Below, one piece after another: positions 3,866 to 63,523 of a stretch of DNA of 64,000 nt (positions are counted from its first letter, which is position 1; every line of letters begins with the position of its first letter). The DNA is from Demequina rhizosphaerae. Its GTDB lineage: Bacteria; Actinomycetota; Actinomycetes; Actinomycetales; Demequinaceae. Below the pieces are notes generated by a model. It searched no databases and was not told the origin of the DNA. It saw nothing but the letters and a program-made list of their open reading frames with translations. The stretch is from assembly GCF_000971255.1 (NCBI RefSeq), contig NZ_BBMC01000004.1:310001-374000 (forward strand), read 5' to 3'. The position numbers were made by a program, and so were the translations under genes.

Positions 3866-5224
3866 CTAGCCCCTGAGCCGCTCCGCGGCCTCCACGACGC
3901 GGCCCGCGATGACGGTCTCGTCGCCGCGCGCCAGCCGCCCGTCGATCACGACGTCCTCGCCCTGGACCAGCATGCGCCGCACGCGGGGGAGCGAGCCGAG
4001 CCCGAGCGCCGCGACCGGGTCCGCGATCCCCGCGTGCTCGATCTCGTCGAGCTCCCACAGGACGATGTCGGCGAGCTTGCCCGGCTCGAGCGAGCCGATC
4101 TCCTTCTCGCGTCCCAGCACCCGCGCGCCGCCCATGGTGGCGATCCGCAGCGCGTCGCGCCCCGGCATCGCGCCGGCCCCGTCGCGCAGGCGCGCGAGCA
4201 GCGCCGCCTGGCGGATCTCGGAGCCGAGCCGGCCGTGCTCGTTCGAGGCGGCGCCGTCGACGCCGAGGCCCACGGGTGCTCCCGCGTCCACCAGCGCACG
4301 CACGGGCGCGATCCCCGCGGCGAGGCGCGCGTTCGATGACGGGCAGTGCGCCACGCCGGTCCCGGTCTCGGCGAAGCGCGCGACGTCCGCGTCGGACAGG
4401 TGCACGCAGTGCGCCATCCACACGTCGGGCCCGAGCCAGCCGAGCGACTCGAGGTAGTCGGTGGGGGACATGCCGAAGCGCTCGCGGCAGAACGCCTCCT
4501 CCTCGACGGTCTCGGCGCCGTGCGTGTGGAGGCGCACGTGGAGGTCGCGCGCGAGGGACGCTGACTCGCGCAGGAGGTCGCTCGTGACAGAGAACGGCGA
4601 GCAGGGCGCTATCGCGACCCGCACCATCGAGTCGAACGACGCGTCGTGGTACCGGGTGACGGCCTCCGCGGAGGCGGCCAGCGCATCGTCCGTCGTCTCG
4701 ACCGCGAAGTCGGGCGGGAGCCCTCCGTCGGACTCGCCCAGGTCCATCGAGCCGCGCGTGGCGTGGAGCCGCAGCCCTAGCTCGGACGCCTCGTGCACGA
4801 TCGACCCGACGATGTCGCCGGAGCCGCGCGGGAAGATGTAGTGGTGGTCGCCCACGGTGGTGCAGCCGGACCGCGCGAGCACCCCCATAGCCCCGGCGGC
4901 GGCCGCCCCCGCGGTGTCGGCGTCGATGCGCGACCACGTGGGGTAGAGCGCGACCAGCCAGTCGAAGAGGATCGAGTCCTGCGCCCACCCGCGCGTGAGC
5001 CACTGGTAGAGGTGGTGGTGGGTGTTGACCAGGCCCGGCGTCACGAGCGTGCCGCGCGCGTCGATCACGTCGGGGAAGGCGTCACGCACGTCCGACGGCG
5101 CGGCGCCCTCGCCCATCGACACGATGCGTCCGCCGCGGACGGTGATCCAGCCGCGGGCGATCTCGGTGCCGGCGGGGTCGATCGTCGCGATGTACCCGCC
5201 CTCGATCAGCGTGCTGCCTGCCAT
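3866..5224 (-). CDS. Amidohydrolase, 8-oxoguanine deaminase / TRZ-ATZ family
   Basis: The 452-residue metal-dependent hydrolase has the subtype-III amidohydrolase signature: metal ligands in NTHHHL (69-71), H235 in RLHTHGAE, H272 in MAHC, and D323 in GLGVDG, with an N-terminal beta-sandwich and the usual closing strand (VQGEDVVIDGR). Close relatives by motif are 8-oxoguanine deaminases and hydroxydechloroatrazine-type aminohydrolases, which hydrolytically remove an exocyclic amino group from purine- or triazine-like rings in the cytoplasm. It converges on the importer-regulator operon, so the imported ligand may be its substrate; this is inference. Full length for the family. The exact substrate is uncertain. 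Confidence 0.82.
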   Translation of the reverse strand: MAGSTLIEGGYIATIDPAGTEIARGWITVRGGRIVSMGEGAAPSDVRDAFPDVIDARGTLVTPGLVNTHHHLYQWLTRGWAQDSILFDWLVALYPTWSRIDADTAGAAAAGAMGVLARSGCTTVGDHHYIFPRGSGDIVGSIVHEASELGLRLHATRGSMDLGESDGGLPPDFAVETTDDALAASAEAVTRYHDASFDSMVRVAIAPCSPFSVTSDLLRESASLARDLHVRLHTHGAETVEEEAFCRERFGMSPTDYLESLGWLGPDVWMAHCVHLSDADVARFAETGTGVAHCPSSNARLAAGIAPVRALVDAGAPVGLGVDGAASNEHGRLGSEIRQAALLARLRDGAGAMPGRDALRIATMGGARVLGREKEIGSLEPGKLADIVLWELDEIEHAGIADPVAALGLGSLPRVRRMLVQGEDVVIDGRLARGDETVIAGRVVEAAERLRG

Positions 5225-5257
5225 GGACCCTCCCAGGGTGAGCCGCGCATCGTCCCG

Positions 5258-6142
5258 TCAGAGGCCGGTGGCGGAGAAGTGCATCCAGTCGTCGAGGTCG
5301 GTCCAGGTGCCGCCCCACTCCCAGCCGACCGCCGCGAAGTCCTCGATGATCTTGCGCTGCGTCTCGATCATGCCCGGCCGCAGCCATTCGCGGTCGCGGT
5401 ACGCGCCCGCGAGCTCGGGGAAGACGTAGCCGTCGCGGACCCACGGGTTGTGGAACGGGTTGATGTCGACAGCGAGCCCGGAGGCGTGCTCGGACCAGAC
5501 GTCGTAGCCGCCGGTGACCTTGCGGCACTCGAACGAGATGGTGACGTTCTGGTCGCCGGTGTGGTCGCCGCGCACCTCGGACCACGAGGTGACGCGCATC
5601 TCCTCGATGGGGAAGCGGCGCTCGTACATCTTCTCGAAGACGCTCGCGAGCTCCTCGGCATGCGCCGCGTTGGTGATCATCTCGCCCGTGTGGGCCTGGA
5701 GGTCGAAGCCCCAGAACGGCATGACGATGTAGGCGAGGTCCTCGGGCTCGACGGGGCACTGCTCGCGCCAGCTCGAGCGCTTGAGCACGTCGTCGGGGAT
5801 AGCCGAGATCTCGACGAACCAGTCGTCGGTCTCGGGGTCCGGGTAGGAAGTCTTGCCGGGCTCGAGGCGGCGGTCGCGCAGCTCCTCGGGCGTGGCGACG
5901 GGCTTCCCGAGGTCGTTGTCCTGCTTCTTCAGCACGGTGGTGCCCAGCCAGTCGGGTCGCGCGAACGGGTTCGCGACGACGTCGATGGACGGATCGGCGA
6001 CCGGCTCCGGGGTGACGGTCGCGGTGATCGCGGGCTGGGGCTCGGGGGTCGCGGTCACGGTGGCGCGCGGCGTCGGCGCCTCGGCCGTCGTGCAGGCGGC
6101 GAGGAGCAGGGCCGCGGAGGCGGCCAGGACGGCGGAGCGCAT
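5258..6142 (-). CDS. M15-family D-Ala-D-Ala carboxypeptidase-like lipoprotein
   Basis: An ATG start gives a short positively charged n-region, a hydrophobic core and a lipobox LLAAC (Cys 17), followed by a Thr/Pro/Ala-rich spacer. An in-frame GTG two codons upstream (6148) is the alternative start. The C-terminal domain shows the peptidase_M15 zinc motif: SEHASGLAVDINPF, carrying the His-x6-Asp ligands, and DWMHFSATG at the C terminus. Such VanY-like enzymes trim D-Ala or related bonds in peptidoglycan outside the membrane. It stands alone between divergent ligA and the amidohydrolase gene. Enzymatic specificity is inferred from the family only. Confidence 0.83.
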   Translation of the reverse strand: MRSAVLAASAALLLAACTTAEAPTPRATVTATPEPQPAITATVTPEPVADPSIDVVANPFARPDWLGTTVLKKQDNDLGKPVATPEELRDRRLEPGKTSYPDPETDDWFVEISAIPDDVLKRSSWREQCPVEPEDLAYIVMPFWGFDLQAHTGEMITNAAHAEELASVFEKMYERRFPIEEMRVTSWSEVRGDHTGDQNVTISFECRKVTGGYDVWSEHASGLAVDINPFHNPWVRDGYVFPELAGAYRDREWLRPGMIETQRKIIEDFAAVGWEWGGTWTDLDDWMHFSATGL

Positions 6143-6191
6143 GCGCACACGCTACTGATCGGAGAGGGACGATGCCAGGGCCGGGTGGGCG

Positions 6192-6228
6192 CCGGGTGTC
6201 GGGGGGGCGTCCGGTGTCGGGGGGACGT
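6192..6228. repeat. Two tandem G-rich 18-19-bp units upstream of ligA
   Basis: The unit CCGGGTGTCGGGGGGGCGT is followed directly by CCGGTGTCGGGGGGACGT. The G-runs lie on the ligA sense strand, 15 bases before the GTG start, and could fold into a quadruplex or act as a slippage-prone tract in the 5' region. No clear Shine-Dalgarno sequence is seen between the repeat and the start. Confidence 0.5.
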
Positions 6229-62377: not shown

Positions 62378-62393
62378 TCCTCGGCGCGGGCCT

Positions 62394-62960
62394 TCAGAGC
62401 ACGTCGTAGACGAGCGTGACGTGCCCGCTCGGCAGCGCGTCGATCTCCGTGGGCCTCAGCGTGCGCGAATGCCGCAGCCCGGGCGTCACGGTCCGTCCCT
62501 CCCCGATGAGCACCGGGACGATGCGCAGCCGCACCACCTCGACGAGCTCCGCCTGGAGTAGGGCGCCGGCGAGGATGAGGCTGCCCCACAGGACGATGTC
62601 GCCCTCGTAGCGCTGCTTGAGCCGGCGCACGGTGTCGCGCGGCTCGCCGACCTCGACGTGCGCCGAGGCGTAGTCGCCCCAGGGCGTGCGCCGGAGCGTG
62701 TTGGTGACGACGTGCTTGGGCGTCTCGTTGATGAAGTCGGCGAGGGGCTCCTCGTCGATGGTCTTGCCGGGCCAGTAGTGGGCGAACAGCTCGTAGGTGT
62801 TGCGTCCCAGCAGGATTGCGTCGACGTTCTCGAGCATCGCGATCTGGCCCGGGTCCGTCGCGTCGAACGGACCCGGGATGCGCATGAAGTCGAGCTCGCC
62901 GTCGGGGCCGGCGGCGAAGCCGTCGACGGTGACGATCTGCTCGACGATGAGGCGACCCAT
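62394..62960 (-). CDS. Dihydrofolate reductase-like (RibD C-terminal) family protein
   Basis: The 188-residue protein has the RibD_C/DHFR-like pattern: start RLIVEQIVTVDGFAAG, NVDAILLGRNTYELF, and GDIVLWGSLILAGALLQ, which forms the NADPH-binding loop. Stand-alone members reduce unknown pterin- or flavin-like substrates. It converges on the small Cys-cluster gene with a 16-base gap. Confidence 0.88.
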   Translation of the reverse strand: MGRLIVEQIVTVDGFAAGPDGELDFMRIPGPFDATDPGQIAMLENVDAILLGRNTYELFAHYWPGKTIDEEPLADFINETPKHVVTNTLRRTPWGDYASAHVEVGEPRDTVRRLKQRYEGDIVLWGSLILAGALLQAELVEVVRLRIVPVLIGEGRTVTPGLRHSRTLRPTEIDALPSGHVTLVYDVL

Positions 62961-63004
62961 ACCGCCAGAGTAGGACGCGTCGCCGCAGGTGCGCGCGGCG
63001 TTGG

Positions 63005-63523
63005 CTAGGGACGATGCGCGGCCTGGTTGGCGTGCCCGGTGGCGGTGCGCGTGCGCGCGACCCTGCGCAGGTCGCGCCCCACGATCACGAGGGTCGCGAT
63101 CGCCGGCAGTGCGATCACGGCGTCCCACAGCTGGCCCGGCGCGCCCATGCCGATGACGGCGTCGCTCGGCTGCGCCGCGATCCACTGCGACACGGACAGG
63201 ACGGCGATCCACGCGGCCATCCCGACGACGGTGACCCACGCGGCGACGTGCCACGTCGCGACCGCGCGGCGGTTGCCGGCGGAGCGCGTGCGGCGCACGA
63301 GCCATCCGAGCACGAGCGCGAGCGCGGCCGCGAGCATCACGGCGCCGAGGATCCAGTTGGCCTCCTTGGGCATAGTCCGCTCGGCCGGGATGACGCTCGA
63401 GCTCGGGTCGTCCCAGGTCCGCAGCTGCTCGGGGACGCTCGCGACGACGAGCAGCGCGCCGAGCGCGAGCGCGATGCGCACCGCGAGCGACAGCGCCCCC
63501 ACGAGCCGCGTCCACTGAGCCAT
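63005..63523 (-). CDS. Four-helix membrane protein, unknown function
   Basis: The 172-residue protein has four hydrophobic segments (about 7-28, 55-76, 90-110, 130-150) with basic residues in the loops between them. A GGACGATGCG motif overlaps its last codons and ends four bases before the stop. I do not recognise a family; no partner gene is obvious. Confidence 0.72.
   Translation of the reverse strand: MAQWTRLVGALSLAVRIALALGALLVVASVPEQLRTWDDPSSSVIPAERTMPKEANWILGAVMLAAALALVLGWLVRRTRSAGNRRAVATWHVAAWVTVVGMAAWIAVLSVSQWIAAQPSDAVIGMGAPGQLWDAVIALPAIATLVIVGRDLRRVARTRTATGHANQAAHRP

Follow-up and report, generated by a model that had tools for sequence, protein, structure and literature searches.

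Passages of Frye et al. 2013 (PMC3630211) describe the requirement for short uptake sequences as unique to Neisseria species and the Pasteurellaceae. In both systems, the DNA uptake sequence (DUS) of the former and the uptake signal sequence (USS) of the latter, the word occurs about once per kb and shows no significant orientation bias, as stated in passages of Redfield et al. 2006 (PMC1626085), and biased uptake as a possible builder of such words is discussed in passages of PMC1939737. Here we analysed a stretch of 64,000 nucleotides from Demequina rhizosphaerae (assembly GCF_000971255.1, contig NZ_BBMC01000004.1, positions 310,001 to 374,000), called the window below, together with the whole genome from which it was taken (G000) and the genomes of relatives. 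We propose that a word of 10 letters, GGACGATGCG, forms the core of a DNA uptake sequence that has dialects in this high-GC Gram-positive genus, and from the analysis of genome sequences we give this reading a probability of roughly three in four. The hallmarks of uptake sequences that were tested at the sequence level were all found, two of them weakly (spacing and close pairs) and one for coding sites only.

The DUS of the Neisseriaceae resembles the Demequina word in being short, in lying both in genes and between them, in forming inverted pairs and in having spellings, eight in number, that follow relationship (passages of PMC3630211). It is taken up through a type IV pilus receptor system (passages of PMC6370729), and Demequina has genes for a type IV pilus. 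In contrast, the Demequina word is unrelated to the DUS, belongs to a high-GC Gram-positive host and forms few inverted pairs, and no basic minor pilin resembling ComP was found in Demequina. The USS of the Pasteurellaceae shares with the Demequina word a core with a flanking motif on the 3' side, the lack of orientation bias, an origin by substitution, a spacing more regular than random and some close pairs in opposite orientation (passages of PMC1626085). Two USS subtypes are described in passages of PMC3630211, whereas at least four spellings occur in the single genus Demequina; moreover, the 3' flank is GC-rich in Demequina (NNGGT) and consists of two AT-rich motifs in the USS, and the Demequina word has about half the density.

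Among actinobacteria, natural transformation and homologues of comEA and comEC are reported for Micrococcus luteus in passages of PMC6370729 and PMC4322843, and those passages report no uptake word for this species. According to them M. luteus uses Tad/Flp pili, whereas Demequina has a pilus cluster of the PilB/T/C/D/M type. A literature search of titles and the beginnings of abstracts, with most subscription journals and preprints outside its coverage, returned no description of such an uptake word for Actinobacteria, Actinomyces or Demequina, or of the words themselves.

Abundance and placement of the word

In the window, GGACGATGCG was present in 41 exact copies, 23 on the plus strand and 18 on the minus strand. 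Its abundance had been pointed out in an earlier note made from the letters of the window, and this was correct, although the 39 copies (22 forward and 17 reverse) given there were not reproduced by the recount. One hundred dinucleotide-preserving shuffles of the window gave 0.99 copies on average and 5 at most, while 1.17 were expected from a third-order Markov model. No other 10-mer ranked higher, and the next ones, excluding those that overlap the word, reached 18. In the whole genome (3.03 Mb; assembly of 3,034,373 bp, 98.4% complete) we counted 1371 copies, 688 forward and 683 reverse, or about one per 2.2 kb, against 3 + 0 copies of a control with the letters reversed. A 424 kb sample of the genome, made up of the window and 18 stretches of 20 kb and leaving aside an all-N stretch of 2,764 bases, contained 200 copies where 6.5 were expected, an enrichment of some 30-fold. 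The claim of a genome-wide overabundance was thus understated, and in this sample the frequency did not match a Markov expectation; such a match is what the earlier note had named as speaking against it.

The word is non-palindromic and asymmetric. Its two orientations were represented by 107 and 93 copies in the sample, without heterogeneity among the 19 stretches (p = 0.95), so that no orientation bias was observed overall or per stretch (19 stretches, on which origin and terminus were not mapped), in agreement with the lack of strand bias asserted before. Words with one mismatch to GGACGATGCG were, as a group, only mildly raised in the sample, with the clearest rises at the first two positions, which indicates that the core is sharp. 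On its 3' side the core is followed by a softer motif. Around the 56 intergenic copies of the sample there was a G at -1 in 37 cases, a G at +12 in 44, a G at +13 in 34 and a T at +14 in 22, and no longer conserved unit was seen around GGACGATGCG beyond 10 to 16 bp. The flank samples of other genomes comprised 7 to 41 copies each, with coding and intergenic copies pooled. In these, GG at +12/+13 accompanied by some T at +14 was observed around the words of G029+G016+G033, G010, G012 and G026, while the words of G006 and G021 (7 copies) had the GG and lacked the T. The samples of G006, G029+G016+G033, G010, G012 and G026 contained 15 to 31 copies each.

Genes were called with a simple caller of our own, by which 89% of the window is coding. 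Of the copies in the window, 13 of 41 were wholly or partly intergenic; the intergenic enrichment proposed earlier stands, the exact figure given for it (12 of 39) does not. In the sample, 144 copies lay inside genes (381,571 bp) and 56 were wholly or partly intergenic (42,429 bp), which corresponds to an intergenic density 3.5 times the genic one (p = 7e-13), compared with 1.44 times for the one-mismatch words. The copies were spaced slightly more evenly than random, with a coefficient of variation of 0.85 versus 0.98, a value as low being reached in 1.4% of 2000 simulations. Pairs on opposite strands within 60 bp numbered 7, with 2.8 expected, and 2.3% of 2000 simulations had as many.

Inside genes, the word has left a clear imprint on codon use. 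All six frames were read across the 144 genic copies (77, 40, 16, 5, 4 and 2), as the claim of several reading frames had it. GAT makes up 5.4% of the Asp codons of the sample, and Asp-Asp-Ala was written GAC-GAT-GCG 84 times where codon use predicted 4.0, which bears out the suggestion that the word forces a rare codon on the genes carrying it. Similarly, Ala-Ser-Ser was encoded as GCA-TCG-TCC 42 times (0.3 expected) and Arg-Ile-Val as CGC-ATC-GTC 54 times (33.6 expected), and the three tripeptides themselves were 1.8, 1.9 and 2.4 times as frequent as their composition predicts. Two word-free relatives, sampled at 88 and 53 genes, had GAC-GAT-GCG and GCA-TCG-TCC no more than three times each, and in them the same tripeptides were at 0.7 to 1.4 times composition. 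A genome with another spelling, G034, had GCC-GAT-GCG for Ala-Asp-Ala 24 times, with 2.1 expected.

These figures bear on the idea that the word is a by-product of codon-pair use or of transcription terminators. A terminator role would agree with one inverted pair of the window, formed by copies at 47348..47357 (plus strand) and 47369..47378 (minus strand), which is intergenic, begins 5 bp past a gene end at 47342 directly after the stop codon and could form a putative terminator-like hairpin. Against such an origin, however, GAC-GAT-GCG exceeds what codon use predicts by the margin given above, six frames are used, most copies are single and 144 of the 200 are genic, and we find this explanation scarcely credible. 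Codon-pair bias with no intergenic excess, the second outcome named beforehand as adverse, was not what the sample contained.

The highly iterated palindrome HIP1 of cyanobacteria is an eight-base palindrome, very abundant, with a codon imprint and of unknown use. The Demequina word shares its abundance and its codon imprint, and differs in being asymmetric and extended on one side. A word of this kind, or an address for methylation or restriction, would account for a genome-wide word imprinted on codons, and a palindrome, GCGATCGC, was over-represented in the window too, with 60 copies against 23.6 (both strands were counted, so that every palindrome enters twice). But GGACGATGCG is not palindromic, is softer in its 3' half and exceeds the usual methylase sites in length, and restriction would deplete its target, not enrich it about 30-fold (200 versus 6.5). 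We regard this alternative as quite improbable.

Spellings in the genus and origin of the copies

A first survey of GGACGATGCG covered 36 Demequina genomes besides G000 and 22 genomes from elsewhere in the order. The word was common (711 to 1564 copies) in 11 of the Demequina genomes and rarer (10 to 235) in the other 25, and the 22 genomes outside the genus had 3 to 37 copies. Three more genomes were counted (G059, 1014; G061, 928; G063, 1403), and GGACGATGCG is common in 15 genomes, G062, G064 and G065 being outside the direct counts. Other spellings were found by k-mer search of sampled stretches and confirmed by whole-genome counts: GGCCGATGCG with 352 to 1203 copies in 13 genomes, GGCCGATGCT with 174 to 736 in 8 and GCCCGACGCT with 908 and 254 in 2, all nearly balanced between the strands. 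At least one of these four related spellings was enriched in 35 of the 44 Demequina genomes tallied, by thresholds set after the counts were known, and two were enriched in each of G022, G065 and G015. The remaining nine (G001, G003, G005, G007, G013, G018, G026, G027 and G032) had no abundant word; among them G026, with 235 copies of GGACGATGCG, nevertheless carries the label of that word (A) in the trees.

Beyond the genus, an order-wide survey of GGMCGATGCK in 396 genomes gave a count like those of Demequina, relative to its control, in G349 alone (816 versus 110). This genome belongs to another family of the order, and 102 of its 816 matches were GGACGATGCG. Its 40 kb sample, with small counts and one overlapping locus counted twice, suggests that its own word is GCCGATGCGCT, a hint that the system reaches beyond Demequina. 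When public genomes were scanned for a pair of facing copies, at least 113 stretches were returned; among the matches listed, 81 were from Demequina and 32 from scattered others. Five of the facing pairs came from one Saprospiraceae metagenome bin (L036, L047, L059, L080 and L110), and one from a metagenome record named Glaciimonas (L039), which could be a misnamed Demequina.

The spelling largely follows the species tree. On a housekeeping tree of 39 genomes (aroC, aroK, aroB, degV and metE; built with a quick method, six rows being less than half filled), seven changes of spelling were required, compared with 21.0 when the labels were shuffled. The genes used adjoin the pilus cluster, comEA and an orphan pilin. 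Thirteen genomes labelled GGACGATGCG, including G026, grouped together, G004 and G063 forming a separate pair. Nine GGCCGATGCG and four GGCCGATGCT genomes fell into one group and three more GGCCGATGCT genomes into another, and the two GCCCGACGCT genomes stood apart. Four word-free genomes were placed beside the midpoint root and two others elsewhere. The GGACGATGCG counts that entered the trees and Mantel comparisons were obtained by subtraction in the case of G059 and G061 to G065 (1097 for G059, 1008 for G061 and 1605 for G063).

In order to follow the origin of individual copies, coding sites of A-labelled genomes were aligned with their orthologues in the regions of the pilus genes, comEC and the orphan pilin. 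Alignment to genomes with other labels gave 506 site alignments, 429 without gaps and 77 with gaps; the sites lie in 56 distinct genes, so that the alignments are not independent. All but five of the ungapped alignments differed by substitutions, 368 of the 429 by 2 to 6, often with GAC in place of GAT. The word was kept in 5 of the 99 gapless alignments that involved word-free genomes and in none of the 330 that involved genomes with other spellings. At coding sites, the alignments indicate that genic copies arose by substitution and not by insertion.

This speaks directly to a short mobile repeat spreading by insertion, one of the candidates of the earlier note. Its high copy number, its sharp consensus and the modest excess of gapped alignments found at the sites are what such a repeat might leave. 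Yet 429 of the 506 alignments are gapless and substitutions separate all but five of these, the element would measure just 10 to 16 bp, without sign of a longer conserved unit, and other species have other spellings rather than none. A mobile repeat is disfavoured by the substitutions at coding sites, and we consider it very improbable indeed.

The main rival is a site bound by an intracellular protein that organises or repairs the chromosome (a nucleoid protein, an anchor or a recombination hot spot) and that coevolves with its site into dialects. The spellings, the extended asymmetric motif and the slightly regular spacing would fit such a site as well. Polar signals such as Chi and the FtsK-orienting polar sequences (KOPS), however, need an orientation bias, and the 19 stretches, on which origin and terminus were not mapped, have none; the density of about one copy per 2.2 kb exceeds that of known addresses of this kind. 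Besides, copies turn over: between A-labelled genomes the word was kept in 97 of 389 ungapped alignments (25%), control words being kept in 5 to 29%. Copies are also denser in stretches of less typical codon use, which makes the exact place of a word seem of little importance. We judge an intracellular site to be unlikely. Of the three candidates put forward in the earlier note, an uptake sequence is the best supported, by the spellings, the strand symmetry, the spacing, the origin by substitution, the 3' motif and the competence genes.

Competence genes and candidate receptors

Type IV pilus and competence genes were found in almost every Demequina genome. ComEC and PilM were each found in 43 of 44 Demequina genomes, N-methylated pilins and DprA in all 44, and the genome without matches to ComEC and PilM, G005, is 85% complete. 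According to Pfam matches, the pilus cluster of G000 encodes two T2SSE ATPases, T2SSF, pilins, a prepilin peptidase and PilM, and has two further genes at the places of pilN and pilO. The comEA gene, with SLBB and helix-hairpin-helix domains, adjoins comEC and is located away from the pilus cluster. The names pilB, pilT, pilW, pilX, pilN and pilO were assigned from gene order and sequence reading, as were aroC, aroK, aroB, metE, degV, leuS and the acetyltransferase. Two forms of the type IV pilus cluster exist (locus L229 and other genomes), which differ in the length of the second pilin gene, about 150 codons in one and about 600 in the other.

An extra (orphan) minor pilin gene was localised near metE, adjacent to it or a few genes away, in all 20 genomes first examined, and an acetyltransferase gene flanked its other side in 19 of them. 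The pilin and ComEA families were collected with single queries from G000, and some members are missing or cut. To measure covariation, protein distance was correlated with spelling after partialling out housekeeping distance, leuS serving as control (0.48). The partial correlations were 0.02 for pilA, -0.03 for pilW, 0.00 for pilX, 0.12 for pilD, 0.08 for pilN, 0.03 for pilO and 0.11 for pilM, and 0.195 (p = 0.017) for the orphan pilin, 0.16 for pilC, 0.20 for pilT and 0.22 for ComEA. The orphan minor pilin is no longer a firm candidate for an analogue of ComP, being acidic, unrecovered in three word-rich genomes and below leuS in its covariation. An apparent rule for its C-terminal residues (GYVE and then N, Q or R), drawn up by eye, has exceptions and is tied to descent. 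ComEA tracks the species tree and does not stand out either. A protein of about 184 amino acids encoded in G000 (L129:8794-9348) has hydrophobic segments and a C-terminal half like the globular part of the orphan pilin, without a pilin leader; weak partial matches to it occur in many Demequina genomes.

Several observations weigh against an uptake sequence, some of them on the side of the machinery. We know of no transformation experiment in Demequina. ComEC and DprA also occur in bacteria that have no uptake words, and the competence genes are found in nearly all nine word-free Demequina genomes, so that their presence or absence gives no correlation with the word. The orphan pilin was not recovered in the word-rich genomes G011, G020 and G061, and no pilin, nor ComEA, exceeded the leuS control in its covariation with spelling. 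In their soluble parts the pilins are mostly acidic, with median isoelectric points of 4.2 to 4.7 and maxima of 5.9 to 8.4. In contrast, the receptors described or proposed for the known systems, among them a minor pilin (ComN) proposed for the Pasteurellaceae, are electropositive according to PMC12616744.

Others concern the words themselves. In the 3' motif, G034 has G at +13 and T at +14 and lacks G at +12, and GG at +12/+13 is weak around the words of G009 and missing in G063. There are just 7 close opposite pairs in 424 kb, two of them in related adjacent genes. The gapped share at the aligned sites was 11 to 18%, depending on the label, compared with 2 to 12% for four control words. Conversion of single sites between dialects was not supported, as the partner's own spelling was seen in 7 of 280 alignments to genomes with GGCCGATGCG or GGCCGATGCT, i.e. 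GGCCGATGC(G/T), versus 2 of 99 to word-free genomes. Word density increases as codon use becomes less typical (rho -0.31 over 84 windows of 5 kb), which lends no support to the notion that acquired, foreign-looking DNA is poor in words. The density rises with GC as well.

Finally, a pilus-cluster tree (pilC, pilT, pilM and aroC; 36 genomes) conflicts with the spelling, requiring 13 changes versus 18.8 with shuffled labels; its rows are not the same as those of the housekeeping tree and its label thresholds differ slightly, G065 being labelled C in one tree and T in the other. Correlations between the distances of the pilus genes and the housekeeping distances are low (0.10 to 0.31, compared with 0.75 for ComEA), from which the pilus cluster appears to have been swapped between lineages with the word unchanged. 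The distribution of the two forms of the cluster conflicts with the housekeeping tree and also suggests exchange.

Copies in the window and a possible mechanism

The copies of the window were placed by exact match and our own gene calls. Single genic copies lie on the plus strand at 2480..2489, 9536..9545, 12486..12495, 15854..15863, 16745..16754, 17803..17812, 21187..21196, 25138..25147, 34599..34608, 52425..52434, 62516..62525 and 63009..63018, and on the minus strand at 4682..4691, 8198..8207 (in the gene for NAD-dependent DNA ligase), 18047..18056, 27201..27210, 27692..27701, 35253..35262, 50027..50036 and 54713..54722. Two plus-strand copies are located at gene ends, 28479..28488 and 48523..48532. 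A gene at window:48520-52608 encodes a very long regulator in which BTAD and nSTAND NTPase domains were recognised. Apart from the pair near 47348, intergenic copies are found at 20247..20256, 31843..31852, 37446..37455, 44626..44635 and 57471..57480 on the plus strand, and at 5246..5255, 14986..14995, 35575..35584, 35660..35669, 59480..59489 and, immediately past a stop codon, 61391..61400 on the minus strand.

Three further inverted pairs have their first arm on the plus strand and their second on the minus strand. One is formed by 19478..19487, in a gene of the DcuA/DcuB family, and 19496..19505. The others are 41515..41524, which is genic, with 41539..41548, and 43126..43135, in the related gene next door, with 43150..43159. 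These neighbouring genes (window:41390-42946 and window:43049-44569) encode products with 175 of 453 aligned residues identical and weak beta-propeller matches, and the inverted pair with a 24-base offset that both contain was probably doubled with them by duplication.

As an uptake sequence, the word could act in the following manner. Free DNA would be captured by the type IV pilus of Demequina cells, whose pilus or surface receptor would prefer fragments with the core GGACGATGCG and the softer NNGGT on its 3' side. The captured DNA would then pass to ComEA and ComEC, be protected by DprA and enter recombination. Alleles bearing the word would be taken up more often, and mutations creating or improving it would be fixed where the function of the gene permits. 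The outcome would be words on both strands, with the highest density between genes and at permissive protein sites. If the specificity of the receptor shifted, the words of that lineage would drift to a new spelling, giving dialects along lines of descent. The odds seem evenly balanced that this is a self-recognition system independent of those in the Neisseriaceae and Pasteurellaceae, with at least four spellings in the genus, kept through exchange of the pilus cluster and served by a receptor unlike ComP whose gene lies outside that cluster.

If the reading is true, Demequina would provide a third, independent case of an uptake sequence, in Gram-positives, implying that such systems evolve repeatedly. 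The presence of dialects and of word-free relatives in one genus would make the debate between drive and selection testable by comparison, and the word would offer a handle for transforming members of the genus. It would also predict that the exchange of DNA in Demequina is structured by dialect.

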